IMG/VR virus record: IMGVR_UViG_3300043425_000929
Coordinates: 1 to 27,843 of that record
Reading direction: 5' to 3' (one strand)
Source: a virus
Length of the DNA: 27,843 bases
Positions 17,611 through 27,843 of the stretch are shown one piece after another. A program made the translations under genes and the position numbers. The notes below the pieces were generated by a model. That model worked only from the letters and a program-made list of their open reading frames with translations, was not told the DNA's origin and did not search any database. Each line of letters opens with the position of its first letter. The stretch's first letter is position 1.

Positions 17611-18369
17611 TTATACAATAACTATAGATACGCCATCACTGTTTGAGATAACTTCTTGTTTTTTATGCCAAGGAAAGTCGTCATTATAAACATTCTTCAT
17701 GATTTTATTACCTTTTTCGAAGAAAGATTTCTGAACAGAACCCTCATTACCACCTAATCTATAGTTAACAGTATGTTGATTTGTACAAGTAAAGTTTGGA
17801 AAGTATTGTTTGATAGCACCGAAGAATTTTCTATCGGCACCCCATTGACCATACCAAGCATGTCCTATTTGAATTGCTACATCTTTTCTTACAGCAAAAC
17901 ATGAAGTGTCTATATGATAAACATTCTCATCAAAGAACGTAGGCCATTTACCAAGTGATTCACAGTTATCTAAACAAACGAATTCACCATCTTCATCATA
18001 TATGTTTCTAAGAGAAAACACCCATTGATTTGTAGAATTCTCTAGCGTGTCAACAATAGTTTGAACATGTGTTGGTTCAATCCAGTTATCTTCGTCAAGA
18101 TATACAATCACATCAGCATTTACTAAGAACGAACAAGCGGCATATACTCGATGACCATACCAACCTTTACCAACATTCTCTTCTAGAGCAATTAGTTTTG
18201 TTTTTGTATATTCATCTTTATCAGTAACTTCTTGAATGCTATCAAAGTATTGCATACCATCAGCAAAGATATAATGAACAATATCAGTATATGTTTGATT
18301 GTTTACGCTCGCAACACATTTTTCTAGATGTTTGCTACCAATAGAAGGAGTGACTACCGCTACTTTCAT
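17611..18369 (-). CDS. Family 2 (GT-A) glycosyltransferase
   Basis: A 252-aa GT-A protein. The N-terminus VAVVTPSIGSKHLEKCVASV then NNQTY is the nucleotide-sugar binding strand/helix. YLDEDN at about 115-120 is the DxD-like metal site. The acceptor half has WYGQWGADRKFF. It transfers a sugar from a nucleotide-sugar donor; the acceptor is unknown. The gene overlaps the nucleotidyltransferase-cupin gene by four bases, which may supply the activated sugar. A role in altering host surface glycan, or a virion component, is inferred. Confidence 0.85.
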   Translation of the reverse strand: MKVAVVTPSIGSKHLEKCVASVNNQTYTDIVHYIFADGMQYFDSIQEVTDKDEYTKTKLIALEENVGKGWYGHRVYAACSFLVNADVIVYLDEDNWIEPTHVQTIVDTLENSTNQWVFSLRNIYDEDGEFVCLDNCESLGKWPTFFDENVYHIDTSCFAVRKDVAIQIGHAWYGQWGADRKFFGAIKQYFPNFTCTNQHTVNYRLGGNEGSVQKSFFEKGNKIMKNVYNDDFPWHKKQEVISNSDGVSIVIV

Positions 18370-19130
18370 TCTTTTCTCTCAATATCACTTTCAACGCATT
18401 CTTCACCGTATTGAATTTCAATAATTCTACATGGTTCATCAAAAGGATTAATTAGTTGATGCCATTGTTCTTTTGCTACAAAATGAGAATCGTGTTTATC
18501 TAATCTCACTGTTGGTAACTTATATTCACCACTAAGTTGCCCTGATACTAATGATTCACCTTCACTGACTAACCAATACTCTGAACGTTTATTATGCTTT
18601 TGCATCGATAATTTCTGACCAGGATTAATAGTCAACTCTTTAACTTTAACGCCAGGTGCTTCATGAAGTACTCGATAGTAACCCCATGGCCTGATAGTTT
18701 TTGGTGCTTTCCATTCTTCAAGAATCCATGATGATGAATTCATCTTGTTATCACCACCGATACCAAACTTGAATATTAGATTATCATCTTTAACATCCAT
18801 TTCAGGAATATTAGCTGAAGTTCTATCGCCACCATTTGCAAAGATGATTTGATTTGTTGGAAATAGTTTTCTGACTTGTGTAATAGCATCTTTTGCTGAA
18901 CCATCAGAATCATCAAACTCAACAACACCCATGACATTTTTTAAACTAGAGACAATCTTTTTTCGCTCAGTATAAGGCATAAAAAAAGCACCCTTCTTGC
19001 GAATAAGCCATGCATCGGAGTTTACTCCAACCATAACTCTTCCCAATTCGGATGCTTCTTTAATATATTCAAGATGTCCGGAATGGATTGGGTCAAATCC
19101 ACCCGTTACAATAACAATTGAATCACTCAT
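18366..19130 (-). CDS. Nucleotidyltransferase-cupin fusion
   Basis: Two domains. Residues 1-135 form a cytidylyltransferase-like fold: GGFDPIHSGH with the HxGH catalytic pair (His16, His19), and FANGGDR (97-103). Residues about 145-254 form a cupin like the C-terminal part of type II mannose-6-phosphate isomerase/GDP-mannose pyrophosphorylase: RPWGYYRVL, PGQKLSMQKHNKRSEYW (His179, Glu184), WHQLINP (His224). Activated-sugar synthesis is likely; the substrate is unknown. It overlaps the GT2 gene downstream and lies two bases after the DUF6433-like gene. Confidence 0.85.
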   Translation of the reverse strand: MSDSIVIVTGGFDPIHSGHLEYIKEASELGRVMVGVNSDAWLIRKKGAFFMPYTERKKIVSSLKNVMGVVEFDDSDGSAKDAITQVRKLFPTNQIIFANGGDRTSANIPEMDVKDDNLIFKFGIGGDNKMNSSSWILEEWKAPKTIRPWGYYRVLHEAPGVKVKELTINPGQKLSMQKHNKRSEYWLVSEGESLVSGQLSGEYKLPTVRLDKHDSHFVAKEQWHQLINPFDEPCRIIEIQYGEECVESDIERKE

Positions 19131-19132
19131 TA

Positions 19133-19576
19133 TTAATCTTCCAAGTCACCGATATAAATCTCTGGAAATGCCTCGTGTACTAATTTAGGTGTTAAACCTT
19201 TAACTTTAATCTTCTTAGTCAGCAATTCAACTAATAGTTTAGCTTCATCTTTATGTAAAGACTCAAGTACTACTAATAACAATTCTGATTTCTTTTTGTC
19301 TGATAGATTTTCAGGACGTTTAGGATGACCTACAACGAATCGATATAATCTTTGCATCTCAGCATCTAGATATGTCATCGATAAACCAGGTGGGTCAAAC
19401 GAAGGACGATAATCAGGAATAATAACGTCGAATTGAATATTTGGATTAAATGCTCCACTTAAAAATTCAACGAATGGTTTGTTTGCGACTTTTTGTAAGT
19501 ACGCAATTTTCTCCGCACGTGACGGAAGTGATTCAAACTTATCAAAAATTTCACTATATAATAACTCAGAACTCAT
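19133..19576 (-). CDS. DUF6433-like T4-type phage protein (147 aa)
   Basis: The start is the ATG at 19576 (MSSELLYSEIFDKFESLPSR) with GAGG upstream; a TTG two codons earlier is less likely. The layout fits an unnamed family next to replication genes in T4-like cyanophages: a helical N-terminus ending in a LPSRAEKIAYL block, a FNPNIQFDVIIPDYRPS centre, then LVHEAFPEIY. The assignment to DUF6433 is from memory. It overlaps the Rnh gene by 11 bases. Confidence 0.75.
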   Translation of the reverse strand: MSSELLYSEIFDKFESLPSRAEKIAYLQKVANKPFVEFLSGAFNPNIQFDVIIPDYRPSFDPPGLSMTYLDAEMQRLYRFVVGHPKRPENLSDKKKSELLLVVLESLHKDEAKLLVELLTKKIKVKGLTPKLVHEAFPEIYIGDLED

Positions 19577-20414
19577 TTGCAACCTCTATTAAGTTTTTAA
19601 GACGATTTGCAACTAAGTAATTTATAAATTGCATTTTAGTCTTTGGTTTAGTATTCTCATAACTATGTATAACACTTGTTCGAATATCTTCAGGTATTTT
19701 ACTTAAATCAATCAAACTTTCATTACGTCTGTAGTTTTTAAGTATCTCTTCATTCTCACAAAACACTTCAGGACTCTGATTCAACCAGACAGCAAGCTTT
19801 TCTTCGTAAATGGATTTCTGTCTAACTCCGTTTACATATGAATCATCGGCTGATAATATGTTTGGAATACCATCACCTTTATCACCACGAATAATTAATT
19901 CTTTAAGATGATTAAGTGGATTACTATCTTTAATTTCTTTTTTCAGAATAGGTGAATATTGCTCAACATTCTTCATCGCTTGAAGTTGAACAAAGTCTTT
20001 ATCCGAAGAAAGAATCATAATCTTTTCATAGGGTGATTGTCTCACACATAAAGTAGCAATAATATCATCAGCTTCTACAGTATCAATTTCTAATACTTTA
20101 TAATGAGAATACTTGATAAGTTCTTCTTTGATTACTTCTAAACACTTGAAAATTTCTTCCCAATTCAATCCAGAAGCCTGTCTAGTTTTCTTACGTGAAG
20201 CTTTGTAGTGTGGAAATAAAGTTTTGCGCCAATACTTTCTATTGTCACATGCAATAATAACCTCTGGTCCGTGAGTAGCTTTATACTTCTTAACATATGT
20301 TCTAAGTGTATTAAGTACTAAATGACGAGCCAAATCAATACTGATATCTTTATCACTTTCAGCTAACTCTTTTAAACTAGAGATAACTACTTGATTGAAA
20401 TCAAATATAATCAT
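19566..20414 (-). CDS. rnh: T4 Rnh-like RNase H / 5'-3' exonuclease
   Basis: A 282-aa FEN-family nuclease matching T4 Rnh in length and motif order: IIFDFNQ (Asp5), ACDNRKYWRK (Asp57), VEADD (113-117), SSDKDFVQL (136-144) and RGDKGDGIPN (176-185). The acidic residues bind two metals. T4 Rnh removes lagging-strand RNA primers and adjacent DNA. It lies beside the GroES-like gene, with which it shares one base of overlap. Confidence 0.93.
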   Translation of the reverse strand: MIIFDFNQVVISSLKELAESDKDISIDLARHLVLNTLRTYVKKYKATHGPEVIIACDNRKYWRKTLFPHYKASRKKTRQASGLNWEEIFKCLEVIKEELIKYSHYKVLEIDTVEADDIIATLCVRQSPYEKIMILSSDKDFVQLQAMKNVEQYSPILKKEIKDSNPLNHLKELIIRGDKGDGIPNILSADDSYVNGVRQKSIYEEKLAVWLNQSPEVFCENEEILKNYRRNESLIDLSKIPEDIRTSVIHSYENTKPKTKMQFINYLVANRLKNLIEVANEF

Positions 20415-20665
20415 TATTCTTCCAATACAGCTACAATAAATTCTTCTTTAACGAACCAGTATTTACCTGCTCGTGCTGATTTTGACCAATCAACAATCAA
20501 TCTATCACCGACAGATACATGTTCTACATCAGGTCCAATAGAGATAACTCGACCTTCAGTCTGAGCATCTTTATCCACTGAAGTCAACACGATACCGCTT
20601 GATGTTGTTGACTCTTTAGCAATTTGTTCTACTAATACGTTATTCTTTAATGGTCTAATATTCAT
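20414..20665 (-). CDS. groES: GroES-like co-chaperonin
   Basis: An 83-aa protein starting MNIRPLKNNVLVEQIAKEST, with the mobile-loop segment TTSSGIVLT (21-29), GRVISIGPD (38-46), and a C-terminal FIVAVLEE strand, all diagnostic of GroES. It would cap host GroEL to fold phage proteins, as T4 gp31 does for the capsid protein. It is slightly shorter than bacterial GroES (about 95 aa). It is a single gene with no GroEL partner. Confidence 0.92.
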   Translation of the reverse strand: MNIRPLKNNVLVEQIAKESTTSSGIVLTSVDKDAQTEGRVISIGPDVEHVSVGDRLIVDWSKSARAGKYWFVKEEFIVAVLEE

Positions 20666-20675
20666 TATTTCATCC

Positions 20676-21764
20676 TCATAAAATTCTCAACAGTATCGTA
20701 TCAGTATTAATACGACCGGTCAATGTTGCTTCTTTAGTTGTTAAATCGGTAAGTACGTTTCTAAGATAAACTTTGCCTTCTTTGATGACTTTTGGAACAA
20801 CTTCATCAGGCTTTCTTAGAGTCTTAGTAATAGATTTTGCTTCTGAAAAGTTTAGTATCGTACTTCCTTTTACTGATAATCCACTTGCATCTTCGGCAAC
20901 ATATACACCTAACTTTTTAGTTTTAGTGTTATATACCCATAACTGCTGAGAACCAATAATTTTCTTAGGGTCTTCAGACTTCAATCCTGCAGGAGGATAT
21001 TCTTTTTGATAAAACATTTTAGCCACTAATTGCTCAGGTGACTTTTGTTTTCTCTTTCTTGGCTTCCTAGACTTAGTAGCAGTCTCTAAGAATTTCATAA
21101 TATCAACAATAATGTTGTCGCAAAATGAGACTACTTTCTTTAATTGTGATTTAGTATAACATGACCAAGCTTCAATCAATTGTTCATCTTCAGTGTTTAA
21201 TGCTTCATCAAACTGTGCTCTACGTTTCTTGAATGTTTCTAGCAATCTATTTGCATGAATACCTTTGACCTTATCTTGCATAATTGCATAAGGTGAAGGT
21301 GTTATCTTGAAGTCGCTGGAGATATATGTATCAATTGCACCTTCTAGTTCACCTGCAATTTCTGATACTTTTTCATTAATTCTATCTTGAATAGACACCA
21401 CATTAGTAGGCTCATCAATTTGAATTTGTTTTCTTTCAGGTACATAAGACTTTAGAACATTAAGTCTCTCATCAAACCATACTTGATTCTTTGCGTTTAG
21501 AATTAAACCTCTGTCTAACATTCGACATATGAAACCAAACGTGGTTGATTGATTGTTGATTGCTTCGGCTGAAGCTTTAATATGATGCTTCTTAGCATAG
21601 TCGACGATTGCTTTATAAGCAAACTTACTATCTCTATTCTGAGTATACCATGTTAATGCTTGTGCTAATTCAATTTTTGAAACTTCAGTTAATTGTGTGA
21701 ATCTAGGTTCACCGCCATTCGACTTTATCTCGAGTTCTTCAAGCGTCTGACGTTTTGTTGCCAT
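20676..21764 (-). CDS. T4-like phage protein of unknown function (362 aa)
   Basis: A 362-aa soluble protein. The N-terminal third has the helical TQLTEVSKIELAQALTWYTQ. A basic patch KSRKPRKRKQKSPEQLVAKM (about 231-250) precedes a beta-rich C-terminus (QQLWVYNTKTKKLGVYV). The basic stretch suggests nucleic-acid binding. I recall similar unnamed proteins in T4-like marine phages near replication genes. It overlaps the 99-aa gene upstream by 26 bases. Confidence 0.8.
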   Translation of the reverse strand: MATKRQTLEELEIKSNGGEPRFTQLTEVSKIELAQALTWYTQNRDSKFAYKAIVDYAKKHHIKASAEAINNQSTTFGFICRMLDRGLILNAKNQVWFDERLNVLKSYVPERKQIQIDEPTNVVSIQDRINEKVSEIAGELEGAIDTYISSDFKITPSPYAIMQDKVKGIHANRLLETFKKRRAQFDEALNTEDEQLIEAWSCYTKSQLKKVVSFCDNIIVDIMKFLETATKSRKPRKRKQKSPEQLVAKMFYQKEYPPAGLKSEDPKKIIGSQQLWVYNTKTKKLGVYVAEDASGLSVKGSTILNFSEAKSITKTLRKPDEVVPKVIKEGKVYLRNVLTDLTTKEATLTGRINTDTILLRIL

Positions 21765-22038
21765 TTAATAATTCCTCAAAAGAGTATCTTGCATAATTTA
21801 GTAGCATGATACCGTTATCTGTTTCACCGTGTAATTTACTTATATGGACAGCTTCTGCCATTGCAGGCTCTTCATGCTTGAATATAAAACAATCTCCAAA
21901 CATTTGCAAGAGTATTTCTCTATTCATCTCGAAGTTATTTGTTAAATCATCATATCGACCAAACAAGTTGGTATATTGATTTGAGTAAGCAACTCGAAGT
22001 CCATCTTTAGTTATTAGTATATATATTCCTGTTTCCAT
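21739..22038 (-). CDS. T4-like conserved protein (99 aa)
   Basis: The product METGIYILITKDGLRVAYSN, with FGRYDDLTNNFEMNREILLQ then MFGDCFIF, matches small proteins I recall from T4-like cyanophages that have the same GxRVAY.. and NxxxxxxMFGxC blocks. Function unknown. It is the first gene of the minus-strand transcript, fed by the promoter at 22072-22100. Confidence 0.78.
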   Translation of the reverse strand: METGIYILITKDGLRVAYSNQYTNLFGRYDDLTNNFEMNREILLQMFGDCFIFKHEEPAMAEAVHISKLHGETDNGIMLLNYARYSFEELLNGNKTSDA

Positions 22039-22071
22039 TTGATTTTTCTTAATTTATTCGTATTCGAGAAA

Positions 22072-22100
22072 ATATTAACATAAATAAGTATATTAGTCAA
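22072..22100 (-). promoter_or_regulatory. Sigma70-like promoter for the minus-strand block
   Basis: TTGACT (22100-22095) and TAATAT (22077-22072) are separated by 17 bp, in the 82-bp divergent gap. It points towards the 99-aa gene at 22038 and the replication block. It lacks the module A-G leader. Confidence 0.55.
22079..22086 (+). promoter_or_regulatory. T4-late-like promoter motif (CATAAATA)
   Basis: CATAAATA differs from the T4 late consensus TATAAATA by one base and is followed by AGTATATT. It lies 34 bases before the ATG of the first plus-strand gene. In such AT-rich DNA one match could be chance; its location at the strand switch raises its weight. Confidence 0.4.
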
Positions 22101-22120
22101 CTATAGATTGAGATATTAAT

Positions 22121-22399
22121 ATGGAACAATTCTTTAAATTAGTCGCAGACGTTGGATTTCCTATAGCGGCCGCATGTGGTGCTGGATACTTTGTATTCTT
22201 AACACTTAAGTTTATTCTTGAAGGTGTTACAGGTGGTGTTAAAAGTATGGCAGGAATTATTATTGCACTTGATAAACGAGTAGCAACTATGAACCACGAC
22301 GTACTACGTATCGATACTAAAGTAAGTCATGCATTAGGTATTCCACCTGATTTAGATAGAATATCACGAGCAGAACAATCTGACGCTAGACGAGACTAA
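22121..22399 (+). CDS. Small membrane protein, holin-like architecture (92 aa), copy 1
   Basis: One N-terminal transmembrane segment (about 13-34, GFPIAAACGAGYFVFLTLKF) is followed by an amphipathic helix (KRVATMNHDVLRIDTKV) and a charged tail (RAEQSDARRD). This matches the shape of small phage holins of the BhlA/UviB type and of unnamed membrane proteins in T4-like phages. It is clearly paralogous to the next gene (GFPIxAAxGxGYFV shared). Holin function is inferred. Confidence 0.75.
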   Translation: MEQFFKLVADVGFPIAAACGAGYFVFLTLKFILEGVTGGVKSMAGIIIALDKRVATMNHDVLRIDTKVSHALGIPPDLDRISRAEQSDARRD

Positions 22400-22400
22400 T

Positions 22401-22658
22401 ATGGATATAGTAGAATTAATTAATAAATACGGGTTCCCAATTGTTGCCGCTGGTGGTCTAGGTTACTTTGTTTACTACGTTTGGAAATGGGTAACTGAAG
22501 AAATTGAACCAGTTATTGGAGATTCTAAAAAAGTTTTGGTTGATTTGATTGACCGTATCAGAATGCTTGATAATGATTTAATCAGATTAACACAGAAAGT
22601 TAATACATTCTTAGCCATTGAAGATGCTAAGAAAAGGGATAGGAATAATAAGCAATAG
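22401..22658 (+). CDS. Small membrane protein, holin-like architecture (85 aa), copy 2
   Basis: MDIVELINKYGFPIVAAGGL then GYFVYYVWKW is one N-terminal transmembrane segment, followed by a helix DLIDRIRMLDNDLIRLTQKV and a basic tail. The order and spacing match the preceding gene, one base apart, indicating tandem duplication. A two-component holin/antiholin or membrane-scaffold pair is possible but unproven. Confidence 0.75.
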   Translation: MDIVELINKYGFPIVAAGGLGYFVYYVWKWVTEEIEPVIGDSKKVLVDLIDRIRMLDNDLIRLTQKVNTFLAIEDAKKRDRNNKQ

Positions 22659-22689
22659 AATCTTATCAAGGGGTAACACCGAGATTCTA
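22656..22689 (+). repeat. Inverted repeat at end of holin-like pair
   Basis: TAGAATCT (22656-22663) and AGATTCTA (22682-22689) are perfect 8-bp inverted repeats around an 18-base loop. The left arm contains the stop codon of copy 2. No T-run follows, so it is not a standard intrinsic terminator. It may be a weak terminator or mRNA 3' end. Confidence 0.5.
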
Positions 22690-22693
22690 CAAG

Positions 22694-22713
22694 TTGTCAA
22701 GTAGTTTGTCAAG
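22694..22713 (+). repeat. Tandem TTGTCAAG repeat, 12-bp period
   Basis: TTGTCAAG occurs at 22694-22701 and again at 22706-22713, one helical turn plus two bases apart. On the minus strand each copy contains TTGACA. It could be a protein-binding pair before the curli cassette, or chance. Confidence 0.35.
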
Positions 22714-22729
22714 AGAAATTTAAAAATAT

Positions 22730-22737
22730 TGTAAATA
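22730..22737 (+). promoter_or_regulatory. Late-like motif (TGTAAATA) before the curli cassette
   Basis: TGTAAATA differs from TATAAATA by one base and lies 53 bases upstream of the csgF start, in the only gap (22659-22790) between the holin-like pair and the cassette. No sigma70 consensus pair is visible there on the plus strand. A weak call in AT-rich DNA. Confidence 0.35.
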
Positions 22738-22790
22738 ATTAGTAACATCATGGTTTAGTTGATTGATTTGAATTACGGAACTGAGCCAAA

Positions 22791-23231
22791 ATGAAAATAT
22801 TAATATTTGCTATATGTCTATTACTATGTGGTAGTGCATATGCTACCGAATTAGTGCACGAGTTTTTTTCACCAGCCTTTTCAGGTAATGGTTATTCAAC
22901 TCATATATTAACCATTGAGCAAATTGAGTCTCAGCGTAAACAAAAAATTAAAGATGAACAGAAAGCGGCTGAGACTAAAGCTGAATTAGCCGCTAAACAA
23001 ACAAATCTTGCTAAGTTTTTAGTGAATGTTGAGTCTAGAATATATGCTCAATTATCTAAGCAACTTGCAGATGAAATGTTTGCCGAAGGTGGTGCTGATT
23101 CCGGTGAAATGAATTTTCAAGGAACTAACATATCATGGTACAAAACAGGAAGTGATGTAACCTTAACTATTCTTGAAGATAACGGTAATAGAACCGAAGT
23201 TACTGTGCCGATAGCAGGATTCTCATTTTAA
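22791..23231 (+). CDS. csgF: CsgF-like curli assembly factor
   Basis: A 146-aa secreted protein with signal peptide MKILIFAICLLLCGSAYA, cut before TELV. The mature start (ELVHEFFSPAFSGNGYSTH) matches the CsgF N-terminus (strand, then xNPxFGGNP, which plugs the CsgG pore). An inserted charged helix (about 45-75, QRKQKIKDEQKAAETKAELA) is longer than in E. coli CsgF. The C-terminal part (YKTGSDVTLTILEDNGNRTE then VTVPIAGF) fits the CsgF beta region. CsgF couples pore and fibre in the type VIII system. It runs into csgG by a TAATG overlap. Confidence 0.85.
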   Translation: MKILIFAICLLLCGSAYATELVHEFFSPAFSGNGYSTHILTIEQIESQRKQKIKDEQKAAETKAELAAKQTNLAKFLVNVESRIYAQLSKQLADEMFAEGGADSGEMNFQGTNISWYKTGSDVTLTILEDNGNRTEVTVPIAGFSF

Positions 23232-24010
23232 TGATTCGTTTATTGATACTAATATTCGTTTTGTCAGGATGTGCTAACGTTCATATGAATGCGGCAAAAG
23301 AAGAACCTGTCAAGATAGAAGCTAGAAAAAAGATTGTTGATGCTTTACCTGAATTGGATGGACCACCGATTCCTATCGCAGTGTATTCGTTCGCAGATAA
23401 GACAGGTCAAAAGAAGTCATCAGATAATCTGGCATTGTTTAGTACCGCAGTAACGCAAGGTGCAGAAGTGTTTCTAATCAAAGCGTTACAAGATAGTAAG
23501 AATTGGTTTAAAGTAGTAGAAAGGGTGGGACTTGATAATCTTATTAAAGAAAGACAGTTGATAAGAAATCAAAGAGAAGTATATGAAGGTAAAGAAGCAA
23601 AGCCATTAAAACCAATGATGGTTGCTGGTGTAATGATAGAAGGAGGTATCATTGGATATGATACTAACATCAGGTCAGGTGGTAATGGTGCTAGATTATT
23701 AGGTATTGGTGTTTCACAGCAATATAGAGTAGATGAAATTGTAATCTCTATTAGATTGGTGAATGTCAATTCGGGTGAAGTAATGTTAACTAACGCAGTA
23801 TCCAAAACGATTTACAGTACTCAACATAACTTAGGTATCATGAAGTTTGTTGATTCAGGTACTAAGTCGATTGAGTTTGAAAATGGAGTTGCACTTAATG
23901 AACCTACTACATTCGCAGTAAGAGTTGCGATTGAACAAGCGGTTTATGAATTGATAATAGATGGAGAAAAGAAAGGTTATTGGAAATTTAAAAAGGAAAA
24001 ACAGCAATGA
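23231..24010 (+). CDS. csgG: CsgG curli secretion pore lipoprotein
   Basis: A 259-aa close relative of E. coli CsgG. The lipoprotein signal is MIRLLILIFVLSGC (Cys14). Signature blocks: IAVYSFADKTGQ, FSTAVTQGAEVFLIKALQDS, IKERQLIRNQRE, VAGVMIEGGIIGYDTN, SGGNGARLLGIGVSQQY, VNSGEV, and the C-terminal IDGEKKGYW (DGxxxGxW). CsgG forms a nonameric outer-membrane channel exporting curlin subunits. The FSTAV eyelet is kept, but positions aligned with the E. coli constriction Tyr and Asn look replaced (Asp and Leu), so the gate may differ. Its last four bases overlap the curlin-like gene. Confidence 0.95.
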   Translation: MIRLLILIFVLSGCANVHMNAAKEEPVKIEARKKIVDALPELDGPPIPIAVYSFADKTGQKKSSDNLALFSTAVTQGAEVFLIKALQDSKNWFKVVERVGLDNLIKERQLIRNQREVYEGKEAKPLKPMMVAGVMIEGGIIGYDTNIRSGGNGARLLGIGVSQQYRVDEIVISIRLVNVNSGEVMLTNAVSKTIYSTQHNLGIMKFVDSGTKSIEFENGVALNEPTTFAVRVAIEQAVYELIIDGEKKGYWKFKKEKQQ

Positions 24011-24594
24011 AAAAAATAGCATTAATCTTTATGATGATAATGCTTAGTAATGTATATGCCGCAGAAATTTATATTGAACAGTCAGGAAGTAGTTCTACTG
24101 TCAATATAAATCAAGAAGGTATAGGTAATATTGTAGGTGATTCACTGAATCCGCTTTATATTGGCGGTGGTTCGAATAACGTTGATATCGACCAAATCGG
24201 TGATAATAACAACCTTCAAGGTGTTGTAAATGGTGCAGGAACAGCAACCACAGTAACAACTAATGGTTCAGGTAATATTCAAATTATTAATTGTGGTACA
24301 ACAACATCAGCAGGATGTTCATCATCAGTAATCAAACAAGTAGTTACTGGAAGTGATAACACTATAACTCAAGATTTAGGTACTGGTGCTAATCATAACA
24401 GTGAGATTACGATTACTGGAAGTGATAACGCAGTGACTCATACTAGCACAAATGCTGGTGCAAGTACTGTAGATATTTCAGTGAGTGGTAATCAAAATAC
24501 TGTGGGAGTAACACAAAGTGGACTTACAGCGAAAACTGTATCAGTTAGTTCTACTGGTAATAGCAATAATATTACTATCAACCAGTCAGAATAG
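24007..24594 (+). CDS. Curlin-like repeat protein
   Basis: A 195-aa secreted protein: signal peptide MKKIALIFMMIMLSNVYA, then beta-strand-loop repeats of the type IxQxG..N (IEQSG, VNINQEGIGN, VDIDQIGDNNN, ITQD, GVTQSGL, ITINQS) rich in Asn, Gly, Ser, Thr and Gln. This is the pattern of CsgA/CsgB amyloid subunits, but spacing is irregular and a Cys pair (CGTTTSAGC) is unlike E. coli curlins. It probably is the secreted amyloid substrate of CsgG. AAGGA precedes the ATG. Its last 77 bases also encode the start of the FecR gene in another frame. Confidence 0.82.
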   Translation: MKKIALIFMMIMLSNVYAAEIYIEQSGSSSTVNINQEGIGNIVGDSLNPLYIGGGSNNVDIDQIGDNNNLQGVVNGAGTATTVTTNGSGNIQIINCGTTTSAGCSSSVIKQVVTGSDNTITQDLGTGANHNSEITITGSDNAVTHTSTNAGASTVDISVSGNQNTVGVTQSGLTAKTVSVSSTGNSNNITINQSE

Positions 24595-25615
24595 TTATTC
24601 AGCAATCGGTAAAGTTTCAGAACAAACAGGTCCTACCGAGATTGTCCGACAAAGCAAATCAATAGAGAGTAAATTAAACTCTTCTATTGAGATGCTTGAC
24701 ACTGTGGTAACCGCAAAGTCTAAAGTGTTACTAACGTTCGAAGATGATACAACAGTTAAGATTACTGAACAATCTAAATTAATTATCGATGATTTTGTTT
24801 ATGATAATAAAAAAGGTGCTGGTAAATTAGCATTAAAAGTTGCTTTGGGTACGGCAAGATATGCTTCAGGACAGATAGCTAAGAGTAACCCACAATCAGT
24901 TAACATACAGACACCAACAGCAACAATTGCAGTTCGTGGTACTGATTTTAGTATGACTGTAGATGAATTAGGTAGAAGTTTGGTGATGCTTTTACCTTCT
25001 TGTGATAAGAAAGCGTGTGTAACAGGTGCTATTGAAGTGAGTACCGATGCAGGTTCTGTTTTTATGAATCAAGCATATCAAACAACTGTAGTTGCTACAC
25101 GAGACCAAGCACCAACTAAGCCTGTGATTGTTAATATAGACCAGGCAAATATTAATAACTTGTTGATTGTTGCACCTCCAAAACAAGTAGAAGAACAAAA
25201 GATACAGCAAGATAATAAAACTGTATTAGATTATAACTTTTTAGATAGAGATTTATTAGAGTATAACAAACTAGATGAAGATGAATTAAAAAGGTTTAGT
25301 TTACTTGATATGAATTTTTTATCTTTTGATTTGTTACCAAATATTTTGGATGAATCGAATAGGTCATTAGCGGCAAGTCAAGAAGCAATGCTAGAAGAAA
25401 AAACTTTGCTTCCTGGATATAATGAAGCATCAGGATTGAAATATGGTATAGATGAAAATGGTAAGTTGATTTTAACAAAGATTGCTAATCATACTGCACA
25501 AGTGACAGTTGATAAAGAGCATGATGTGATTGTTAGTATTACGCAGGATAGTTCACCACTGATACAAAAAGTGAATGGTGGTGGAACAACAACAATTAAC
25601 ATTAATCAGAAATAG
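24518..25615 (+). CDS. FecR-domain exported protein with curlin-like tail
   Basis: 365 aa from a GTG at 24518, the only start after an in-frame TAA (24509-24511); GGGAG (24504-24508) lies nine bases upstream. A signal peptide (about 1-29, LVLLVIAIILLSTSQNSYSA) lies inside the curlin gene. Residues about 33-150 are a FecR domain, with IQTPTATIAVRGTDF (130-144) diagnostic. A Leu/Asp-rich stretch (237-277) repeats every five residues. The C-terminus (GGGTTTININQK) resembles a curlin strand. FecR domains bind or sense extracellular polymers. It may nucleate or tether curlin, or sense it, with the CHASE2 gene nearby. Confidence 0.85.
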   Translation: MDLQRKLYQLVLLVIAIILLSTSQNSYSAIGKVSEQTGPTEIVRQSKSIESKLNSSIEMLDTVVTAKSKVLLTFEDDTTVKITEQSKLIIDDFVYDNKKGAGKLALKVALGTARYASGQIAKSNPQSVNIQTPTATIAVRGTDFSMTVDELGRSLVMLLPSCDKKACVTGAIEVSTDAGSVFMNQAYQTTVVATRDQAPTKPVIVNIDQANINNLLIVAPPKQVEEQKIQQDNKTVLDYNFLDRDLLEYNKLDEDELKRFSLLDMNFLSFDLLPNILDESNRSLAASQEAMLEEKTLLPGYNEASGLKYGIDENGKLILTKIANHTAQVTVDKEHDVIVSITQDSSPLIQKVNGGGTTTININQK

Positions 25616-25623
25616 GAGTAAAA

Positions 25624-27618
25624 ATGCTAAAGCAATCTTTATTAACAGTGGCATTAATCGGTGTGTTTGGTACAGTTCAATCAGCACCTTTAGTATTAGA
25701 AGGCGATTACATCAAAATTGGTGTAAACGAAGTAGGTACATTAGGTTCTAATGGTAATACATCACCTGGTGTTCTATATGATAACACCGGCACAGGAACA
25801 TTCAACACAGCATATGACTACTTAACTCCTGGTTCACCATTCGAAGGATGGACTGTTCAATATAATGGAACAGAATCAGTGATGAATAACAATGCTCAAT
25901 GGTCATCACCACAAATGACAGGTACACTAACAAGTTACAATGGTGTTGCTTACAATGGTACAACATTCGACAATCGAGCAGTTTGGGAAGGTACTTCAGT
26001 AAACTTTGATTTGTTACATGATGTTCGCTTCAATGATAATCAAAAGTTTGTGGATATTACATCAATATTGACAGCTAAAGTTGCAATGACTGATTTATAC
26101 TTCGCAAGATATACAGACCCTGACGCACGTGCGGCCGCTGGTGACAGTTCTGCTACAACAAACACATTAGGATTCTCACCTATTCCAGTAACTCAAGTTG
26201 TATTTTCTGAAGCTTTAGTATCTAGATATGCACTTGGTTTATACTCAGCGGCACCTAACGTAGGCGCAGGTGTTAGTTCAGGTTGGTCAACAGACGCAAC
26301 AACATATTACACCGGTGCAAATGATGGTAATGGTGACTATACGATAGGTTTAGGCTTCCACGTACCAACAGTAGCAATTGGTGACATCGTTACCTTTAAT
26401 TATGCATACATCTTTGGACCTAGCACATTATCTGCTGGTTCTACTGCTGTTACTTCAGGTGCTGGTGGTGGCGTTCCTGGTGAAGTTCCTGGTTGTGTGT
26501 CTGATTGTACATTACCACCTGACCCTAGTTCAACTCCTACATTAGTATCAACAGACGTTGAGTTATCTAGTGTATCTGTAGTTCATAGAGGTGATACTGA
26601 TACTGCAATCGAATACGACTATGCAACATCAAAAGGTTCTAAAGTATTAGCTGTAAATCAAACTACAACTACAACTTTAACAACTCCAGTAACAACTACA
26701 GTAGCTTCTACTTCAACTACAGTTGAAACATATAGTGATTCATCAGTAGTTCGTACAGTTGGTGCAACTACAACGACATCAAGTACAGTTAATGACGTAA
26801 CAGAATCAGAATATGATACTGCATTCTCAACAAGAATTGACCAATTTGATAGATTGTCAGCATCAAATGAAATGTACAATAGACAGTTAAATAGTAATAT
26901 CATGGATAGATTTGTAGCAGGTCAAACTGGTGCTTATTTAAACATCGATAGTCAAACTAGCAATACACAAGATACCTATAAACAAAAAGCAAATCGTTTT
27001 GGTGTTGGAGTAGACAAGTCTATTACTGATAATTTGAATGTAGGTTTTCAATACAATAACATTTCATCAAGATTATCTGGAACTAATGCAGGTGGACGTT
27101 TAGATAAAAATCATGTTGGTGCATATGCTGTATACACTAAAAACAATTGGGTGTTTGTAAACGATATTGGTTTCTCATATAACGATTACAAAACAAATCA
27201 CAGTTTACCTGAATTGAATGCAACAAATAGTTCAAGTGCTAATGGATATGACTTATGGGTTAGCGGTAGAGCATATACTCCATCACTAAAAGGATTCAGA
27301 CCATATGCTGGTATTAGAATTGAAAACAACAACTTAGATTCAGCTAAAGATAAAGGTACTGAATTGACTGCTGTTAGTTATAGTAAAATTAATTCAACAA
27401 ATACAACAGGTGAATATGGTATCAGATACGATTATCAATACAAAAAAGTTAACTTGTTAGCTGAAGTTGGTTCTAATTCTGATAATATCAAACTATACAA
27501 AGCAGGTATTAACTTTATTCCAAATGAAAAAGTTATTGGTGGTGTATCATTTACGCAACAAGAATATGATAATATCAAGAATGATGTGATTTCAGCTAAT
27601 ATAAAAGTTAATTTCTAA
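25624..27618 (+). CDS. Outer-membrane protein with autotransporter-like beta-barrel (664 aa)
   Basis: Signal peptide MLKQSLLTVALIGVFGTVQSA. An N-terminal beta-rich domain (about 22-300, LEGDYIKIGVNEVGTLGS...) is followed by a Pro/Cys hinge (GCVSDCTLPPDPSSTP) and a Thr/Ser/Val-rich stretch (about 340-395). From about 410 amphipathic strands alternate (NRFGVGVDKSITDNLNVGFQ, NHVGAYAVYTKNNWVFVNDI) and end with a terminal Phe (VNF), as in autotransporter barrels. It probably displays the passenger outside the host cell. AGGAG precedes the ATG, nine bases after the FecR stop. No passenger protease motif is seen. Confidence 0.8.
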   Translation: MLKQSLLTVALIGVFGTVQSAPLVLEGDYIKIGVNEVGTLGSNGNTSPGVLYDNTGTGTFNTAYDYLTPGSPFEGWTVQYNGTESVMNNNAQWSSPQMTGTLTSYNGVAYNGTTFDNRAVWEGTSVNFDLLHDVRFNDNQKFVDITSILTAKVAMTDLYFARYTDPDARAAAGDSSATTNTLGFSPIPVTQVVFSEALVSRYALGLYSAAPNVGAGVSSGWSTDATTYYTGANDGNGDYTIGLGFHVPTVAIGDIVTFNYAYIFGPSTLSAGSTAVTSGAGGGVPGEVPGCVSDCTLPPDPSSTPTLVSTDVELSSVSVVHRGDTDTAIEYDYATSKGSKVLAVNQTTTTTLTTPVTTTVASTSTTVETYSDSSVVRTVGATTTTSSTVNDVTESEYDTAFSTRIDQFDRLSASNEMYNRQLNSNIMDRFVAGQTGAYLNIDSQTSNTQDTYKQKANRFGVGVDKSITDNLNVGFQYNNISSRLSGTNAGGRLDKNHVGAYAVYTKNNWVFVNDIGFSYNDYKTNHSLPELNATNSSSANGYDLWVSGRAYTPSLKGFRPYAGIRIENNNLDSAKDKGTELTAVSYSKINSTNTTGEYGIRYDYQYKKVNLLAEVGSNSDNIKLYKAGINFIPNEKVIGGVSFTQQEYDNIKNDVISANIKVNF

Positions 27619-27627
27619 TTTTTAACG

Positions 27628-27635
27628 ACTAAATA
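27628..27635 (+). promoter_or_regulatory. Late-like motif (ACTAAATA) before CHASE2 gene
   Basis: ACTAAATA, followed by AGTAATC, repeats the TAAATAAGTA core found at 22081. It lies just eight bases before the ATG at 27643, so transcription from it would make a nearly leaderless mRNA. Coincidence is quite possible. Confidence 0.25.
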
Positions 27636-27642
27636 AGTAATC

Positions 27643-27843
27643 ATGAAAAAATTACTTAATCCATGGTTAGCGTTAATAACGTTAACTTTATTAGTAGTAA
27701 TCAGATTGGCAGACTTCAGTTTTATCGAGTCTGTCAGATTGCGATATTTTGACACATTAATTACAAGTGAATCTGTAAAGGTTTCTGAACAAATTCACGT
27801 TGTAAATATAGATGATAAGTCCATAGAAAAGTATGGACAATTT
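27643..27843 (+). CDS. CHASE2-domain sensor protein (partial, N-terminus)
   Basis: 67 codons open to the window edge. MKKLLNPWLALITLTLLVVI is a signal-anchor segment; RLRYFDTLI (about 33-41) and the following VVNIDDKSIEKYGQF (about 53-67) are the opening of a CHASE2 domain, an extracytoplasmic sensor usually fused to adenylate/guanylate cyclase, kinase or GGDEF outputs, and often beside FecR genes. The output domain lies beyond the window. No ribosome binding site is evident. Confidence 0.8.
   Translation, partial: MKKLLNPWLALITLTLLVVIRLADFSFIESVRLRYFDTLITSESVKVSEQIHVVNIDDKSIEKYGQF

Follow-up and report, generated by a model that had tools for sequence, protein, structure and literature searches.

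A phage curli-type cassette with a candidate late promoter, a two-part FecR protein and an exchangeable autotransporter

Why a phage should carry genes for curli (type VIII secretion) is the question raised by this locus, and although the cassette is widespread in aquatic phages, its role has been described as unclear from 2020 onward. The window, meaning the whole stretch of 27,843 nucleotides that makes up this 27.8-kb IMG/VR virus record, comes from a T4-like phage of aquatic bacteria and carries such a cassette at positions 22121-27843 on the plus strand. What the cassette is can be stated securely; what it does we infer from its parts and relatives. Our leading reading, which we hold at slightly below an even chance, is a late-expressed cell-surface module that combines curlin-type fibres with the display of an exchangeable adhesin.

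Genes to the left, up to position 22038, lie on the minus strand and are phage-like (RNA ligase, PhoH, exonucleases). From 22121 onward, the plus strand carries genes for two small membrane proteins (TM1 and TM2), followed by csgF, csgG, a curlin-type subunit gene (Cur), fecR, and a gene for an autotransporter of 664 aa. A CHASE2 cyclase gene then begins, and within it the contig end cuts off the right edge of the cassette. The preliminary description placed the beginning of the cassette at 22791. Its account holds from that point onward, including ORFs on a single strand that, starting with csgF, overlap by 1, 4 or 77 nt or are separated by gaps of 8-24 nt, but it missed the two membrane protein genes that move the left edge to 22121. 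The gene identities given there are likewise supported by Pfam, PHROG, and AlphaFold2 models searched with Foldseek, with profile HMM matches to CsgF, CsgG, Curlin_rpt, and FecR all scoring above the curated Pfam cut-offs. Rfam and tRNA scans gave no matches.

The possibility had been raised that the contig is a chimera of host and phage DNA joined at 22039-22790. Homologues of the window genes at 17611-22038 adjoin the same TM1/TM2 pair in 12 other viral contigs (L008, L009, L011, L012, L013, L017, L018, L021, L022, L023, L026, and L032), which rules out a chimera and confirms that the cassette resides in a phage. In L008, viewed in the same sense, the block from csgF to the cyclase appears to be inverted relative to the window, and the TM pair still lies beside those flanking genes. 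The syntenic neighbours at 17611-19130 (minus strand) include a family 2 glycosyltransferase (1.4e-7) and an RfaE-like nucleotidyltransferase (phrog_7878, 1.5e-19), which are predicted to be envelope-directed as well. Elsewhere on the minus strand, the window encodes the CBASS inhibitor Acb3, a counter-defence gene (652-1368; Pfam, E 7.9e-26), and a GDSL-like lipase (1990-2409; 5.3e-10).

A search with FecR as the query found 250 viral stretches, and the best 80 of the 250 were kept. Contigs of these relatives reach 364 kb. The order CsgF-CsgG-Cur-FecR is identical in 80 of 80 loci that carry all four genes, a set that comprises viral stretches together with HTVC008M, Melnitz, and others. About one locus in four has an autotransporter of the window type, placed either after FecR or between CsgF and CsgG. 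At that position the remaining loci carry another curlin-repeat protein, an autotransporter-like protein of greater length, or nothing that was recognised.

TM1 (22121-22399, plus strand; 92 aa) has one apparent N-terminal membrane segment, ends in DARRD, and matches phrog_18771 (4.9e-35). TM2 (22401-22658, plus strand; 85 aa) is a paralogue of TM1 (phrog_18771, 6.3e-33), and both are apparently small single-pass membrane proteins. The published cassette is described, in the part of the article available, as having an upstream 'histidine kinase, sometimes two' (PMC9599517). Judged by position and size, these genes apparently correspond to TM1 and TM2, although Pfam detects no HisKA, HATPase, or other kinase domain in the window pair. 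Among 50,697 phage records, the pair is found only in Melnitz and HTVC008M, both of which carry the cassette. CsgG is present in 64 of the best 80 viral TM1 loci; of the 16 without it, 13 carry CsgF or a cyclase, and the last three are cut near the pair. The mean pairwise identity of TM1 (74%) is the highest of the parts compared. This distribution points to TM1 as a core member of the cassette and to a pair that tracks it.

Upstream of this pair, 42 nt before TM1, is a T4-type late-promoter-like element, CATAAATA (22079-22086, plus strand); the window contains four NATAAATA matches in all, this one included. We take its sequence to be the T4 late-promoter core. TATAAATA precedes TM1 in 36 of 118 distinct regions compared to 3.4 expected from dinucleotide shuffles, and NNTAAATA does so in 107 of 118 compared to 20.8 expected. 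The corresponding counts before TM2 are 0 of 117 and 4 of 117 (7.3 expected), and the element was not found in the regions upstream of CsgG, Cur, or FecR in relatives. With all genes pooled, the enrichment of NATAAATA before leading genes is significant (p 1.4e-13), but it is not significant for CsgF alone or AC alone. Given a T4-type late-promoter core before TM1, transcription of the cassette is probably late.

A late element before the TM pair would also suit a lysis or egress module in which TM1 and TM2 work together as holins and the outer membrane is made permeable by the CsgG pore. This would extend the gated-pore or pinholin idea found in the accessible text of Buchholz et al. (PMC9004378). 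TM2 does match holin phrog_4898 weakly (2.6e-4), over the membrane segment only, and a related autotransporter barrel in phage DSL-LC03 lies beside two endolysins. However, lysis would have no need for a conserved curlin subunit, FecR, a CHASE2 cyclase, or exchangeable passengers, and the pair tracks the cassette and is not found as a general holin. We therefore judge a lysis function to be unlikely.

The first component of the export machinery is csgF (22791-23231, plus strand), which encodes a partner of CsgG with a signal peptide (Pfam CsgF, 2.6e-17); its sole match among PDB sequences, a designed protein, is spurious. The csgG gene (23231-24010, plus strand) encodes an outer-membrane lipoprotein pore with the lipobox LSGC (Pfam CsgG, 3.7e-52) that matches E. 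coli CsgG structures in the PDB (4.6e-47). In the CsgG alignment, the position of Y51, the tyrosine at the constriction of the E. coli pore, shows no conservation. In some 21 contigs, CsgG is 353-415 aa in length and includes a linker and an SH3-like C-terminal part, which Pfam confirms in L076 (SH3_3, 5.6e-9) and L038 (SH3_4, 1.8e-7). Cur (24007-24594, plus strand) has a signal peptide, QxG...N repeats, and two conserved Cys residues. It matches Pfam Curlin_rpt over the cut-off (1.1e-5), as do 34 of 39 relatives, and its family profile matches the curlin-repeat protein 8c50 in the PDB (2.4e-7). By sequence, Cur is an exported subunit with curlin repeats, and we predict that it forms fibres. 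The cassette resembles E. coli csg in its CsgG pore, CsgF, and curlin repeats. It differs by the addition of FecR, the cyclase, and the autotransporter, and by the absence of CsgB, CsgC, CsgD, and CsgE from its eight ORFs according to Pfam, with the region right of the contig end unseen.

Cur and fecR share 77 nt (24518-24594). In 59 of 81 loci the shared stretch measures 59 or 77 nt, so that the codons for the FecR signal peptide lie on top of those for the C-terminus of Cur. The fecR gene (24518-25615, plus strand; Pfam 1.3e-10) encodes a signal peptide (approximately aa 1-29), a FecR domain, an LD-rich linker that is conserved but of low confidence in the AlphaFold2 model, and a C-terminal beta domain. 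Structure comparison of this model places the periplasmic FecR domain (aa 30-212; 24605-25153, plus strand) close to the PupR signalling domain 6ovk (Z 15.0, 134 aa, 2.4 A), and there is a weaker resemblance to the cell-surface anchoring domain 5ix9 (Z 7.2). Pfam finds FecR in 44 of 44 aligned members and no other credible domain. The protein begins with a signal peptide and lacks a cytoplasmic anti-sigma domain, and no sigma factor was found by Pfam among the cassette ORFs. FecR had been put forward as an extracytoplasmic sensing domain, and a periplasmic FecR domain is indeed present. Rather than a membrane anti-sigma factor, however, the protein that carries it is, judging by its signal peptide, an exported periplasmic protein. 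Compared with the PupR/FecR cell-surface signalling regulators, it shares the periplasmic fold but lacks the cytoplasmic anti-sigma part, is exported by a signal peptide, and has the extra linker and C-terminal beta domain.

The likeness to siderophore-signalling PupR, along with a CsgG pore and no CsgE found among the cassette ORFs, could be accommodated by solute uptake, whereby large nutrients would enter through an open CsgG pore and be sensed by FecR. This proposal leaves CsgF, curlin, and the autotransporter unexplained, and Pfam detects no FecI or TonB-receptor partner in the cassette ORFs. We consider it highly improbable.

The C-terminal domain of FecR (aa 306-365; 25433-25612, plus strand) is modelled with six beta strands (pLDDT about 81-88), and it appears to be phage-specific and to end in a curlin-like strand. 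A terminal hydrophobic-x-hydrophobic-(x)-Q strand is present in 81 of 82 FecR and 82 of 82 Cur proteins, compared to 19 of 1145 other ORFs. A structure search with this domain retrieved only Ig-like chains (Z about 3), which is uninformative. The idea that the tail is a proven curlin repeat was dropped: HMMER gives no significant match to curlin, hhalign gives a 60% probability over 13 columns, and Pfam Curlin_rpt is absent from 44 FecR members.

A bacterial source for the whole FecR protein was rejected as well. A pattern-seeded scan of 84,980 genomes recovered only three close, near full-length relatives (L088-L090), which are probably phage DNA binned with bacteria because each contig carries the same TM pair. 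In a FecR profile search of 289 genomes from the class of G001, a Rhodobacteraceae bin, none of the listed matches outside G001 extends beyond model position 279 of 361. An Acidobacteria MAG (L091, 7965-9055) has a cellular pair in which a short FecR protein is followed by a cyclase like the phage CHASE2 cyclase.

Relationships between cassette parts were assessed by partial correlations of distance matrices over 44 loci, and the known pair CsgF-CsgG, which scores 0.22-0.30, calibrates the test. The FecR domain covaries with CsgG (0.37-0.64) and the CHASE2 region (0.40-0.41) and also pairs with Cur. The FecR C-domain covaries with Cur (0.26-0.29) and CsgF (0.25-0.30), and there is no covariation between the two domains of FecR (0.05-0.08). 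These values are exploratory, and shared evolutionary rates or recombination could produce them. One arrangement to consider is that FecR is a retained nucleator. Its PupR-like domain would remain in the periplasm, where the CsgG pore has its base, the linker would thread through the pore, and the curlin-like C-domain would seed the fibre outside, so that growth would be reported to the CHASE2 cyclase. We regard this arrangement as quite doubtful. If true, the secretion pore would carry its own sensor of fibre growth, a design seen to date only in phages.

The 664-aa protein encoded after FecR (25624-27618, plus strand) has a signal peptide and a C-terminal Phe, and it has no Pfam match. AlphaFold2 predicts a plug helix and 12-strand barrel (aa 407-664; 26842-27615, plus strand), with the helix at 407-421, the strands at 436-663, and block pLDDT values there of mostly 80-93. 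The best PDB match of the barrel in Foldseek is the NalP translocator (E 1e-12, TM 0.81 over the target). Based on this model, the protein is a classical (type Va) autotransporter that would display its passenger on the cell surface. The passenger (approximately aa 22-300; 25687-26523, plus strand) has a low-confidence model and is one of three exchangeable types among relatives. The passenger of L007 is 74% identical to that of L075 over 242 aa and its barrel is 54% identical to that of L004, so that relatives swap passengers. NalP and EstA have the same layout, from signal peptide through passenger and plug helix to a barrel of 12 strands, but the protein described here differs in being phage-borne, in lacking a Pfam match, and in the swapping of passengers among phages. 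A related-barrel autotransporter occurs in the Synechococcus phage DSL-LC03 (L086, 3134-4783), where it adjoins two endolysins, and no curli genes are present in the stretch examined around it.

The final ORF (27643-27843, plus strand) covers 67 aa at the N-terminus of a CHASE2 adenylate/guanylate cyclase, whose catalytic domain lies beyond the end of the record. Because only these 67 aa lie inside the window, the CHASE2 match falls below the Pfam cut-off (9.5e-4), and PHROG 35576 is matched at 5.3e-24. Full-length homologues have CHASE2 (6.9e-38) and a cyclase domain. Among 55 cyclase relatives, the catalytic motifs appear complete and of ATP type in about half, and in the other half the transition-state Asn is Ser. 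There are two clades of catalytic domains (L077, L039, and others), and the catalytic and CHASE2 regions do not covary, which suggests domain swapping. FecR and CHASE2 had been described as domains that often occur side by side; both are present here, with the autotransporter between them.

The core cassette has already been published for pelagiphages in 2020 and 2022 (HTVC008M, Melnitz, and HTVC023P-type; PMC7029224, PMC9004378, and PMC9599517), and the preliminary description was right to mention a curli cluster in pelagimyophages. The published cassettes match the window in the order of their CsgF, CsgG, CsgA/B-like, FecR, and cyclase genes, and small genes precede these as well. In HTVC008M and Melnitz, a second protein with curlin repeats takes the place of the window's autotransporter; in HTVC008M it is a PA14-plus-curlin protein between FecR and the cyclase (Curlin_rpt 5.2e-8, PA14 2.7e-6). 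The flanking phage genes also differ, and the placement is divergent. The available portions of these papers do not describe a late-promoter element or the FecR architecture, and those of PMC9599517 contain no mention of an autotransporter, a late promoter, or jumbo phages. Experimental follow-up of the cassette was not found in the open-licence literature. New here are the TM pair without a kinase domain that tracks the cassette, the late element, the autotransporter with passenger swaps, the two-part FecR whose halves covary with different partners, and the SH3 domain on the CsgG of many relatives.

Several functions were left side by side in the preliminary description. The late-promoter evidence and passenger swapping argue for late surface display over uptake or a bare pore. 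Under late surface display, CsgG-CsgF would export curlin late in infection to form surface fibres, and the autotransporter would display an adhesin-like passenger beside them. On the periplasmic side, the PupR-like domain of FecR would sit close to CsgG and the CHASE2 domain. The curlin-like C-terminal domain of FecR might engage the fibre or CsgF as an anchor or nucleator, given that neither CsgB nor CsgE was found, allowing FecR to inform the cyclase about the state of the fibre or pore. As a result, the dying cell, or what is left of it, would become sticky or coated. The most likely outcome would be adhesion or aggregation by which fresh hosts are drawn close, and exclusion of rival phages would be a less likely one. 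Against this reading, Melnitz-infected cultures showed no clumping, according to the available text of Buchholz et al. (PMC9004378).

The same surface machinery could instead serve as a protective coat for superinfection exclusion, with fibres and passenger masking receptors on the infected cell, as proposed in the accessible part of Wittmers et al. (PMC9599517). The envelope-sugar genes that adjoin the cassette fit this idea. If expression is late, however, protection would come after the period in which superinfection mostly counts, except where the latent period is long. We favour late surface display over this coat, which is possible but not probable, and over the lysis module, which we rank lower again.

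If late surface display is correct, these phages would make a dying host secrete curli-type fibres, and would represent viruses that build extracellular structures late in infection. With the evidence for a late promoter, an autotransporter that is exchangeable and a FecR protein in two parts, guesses about this cassette become proposals that are testable on cultured HTVC008M and Melnitz.
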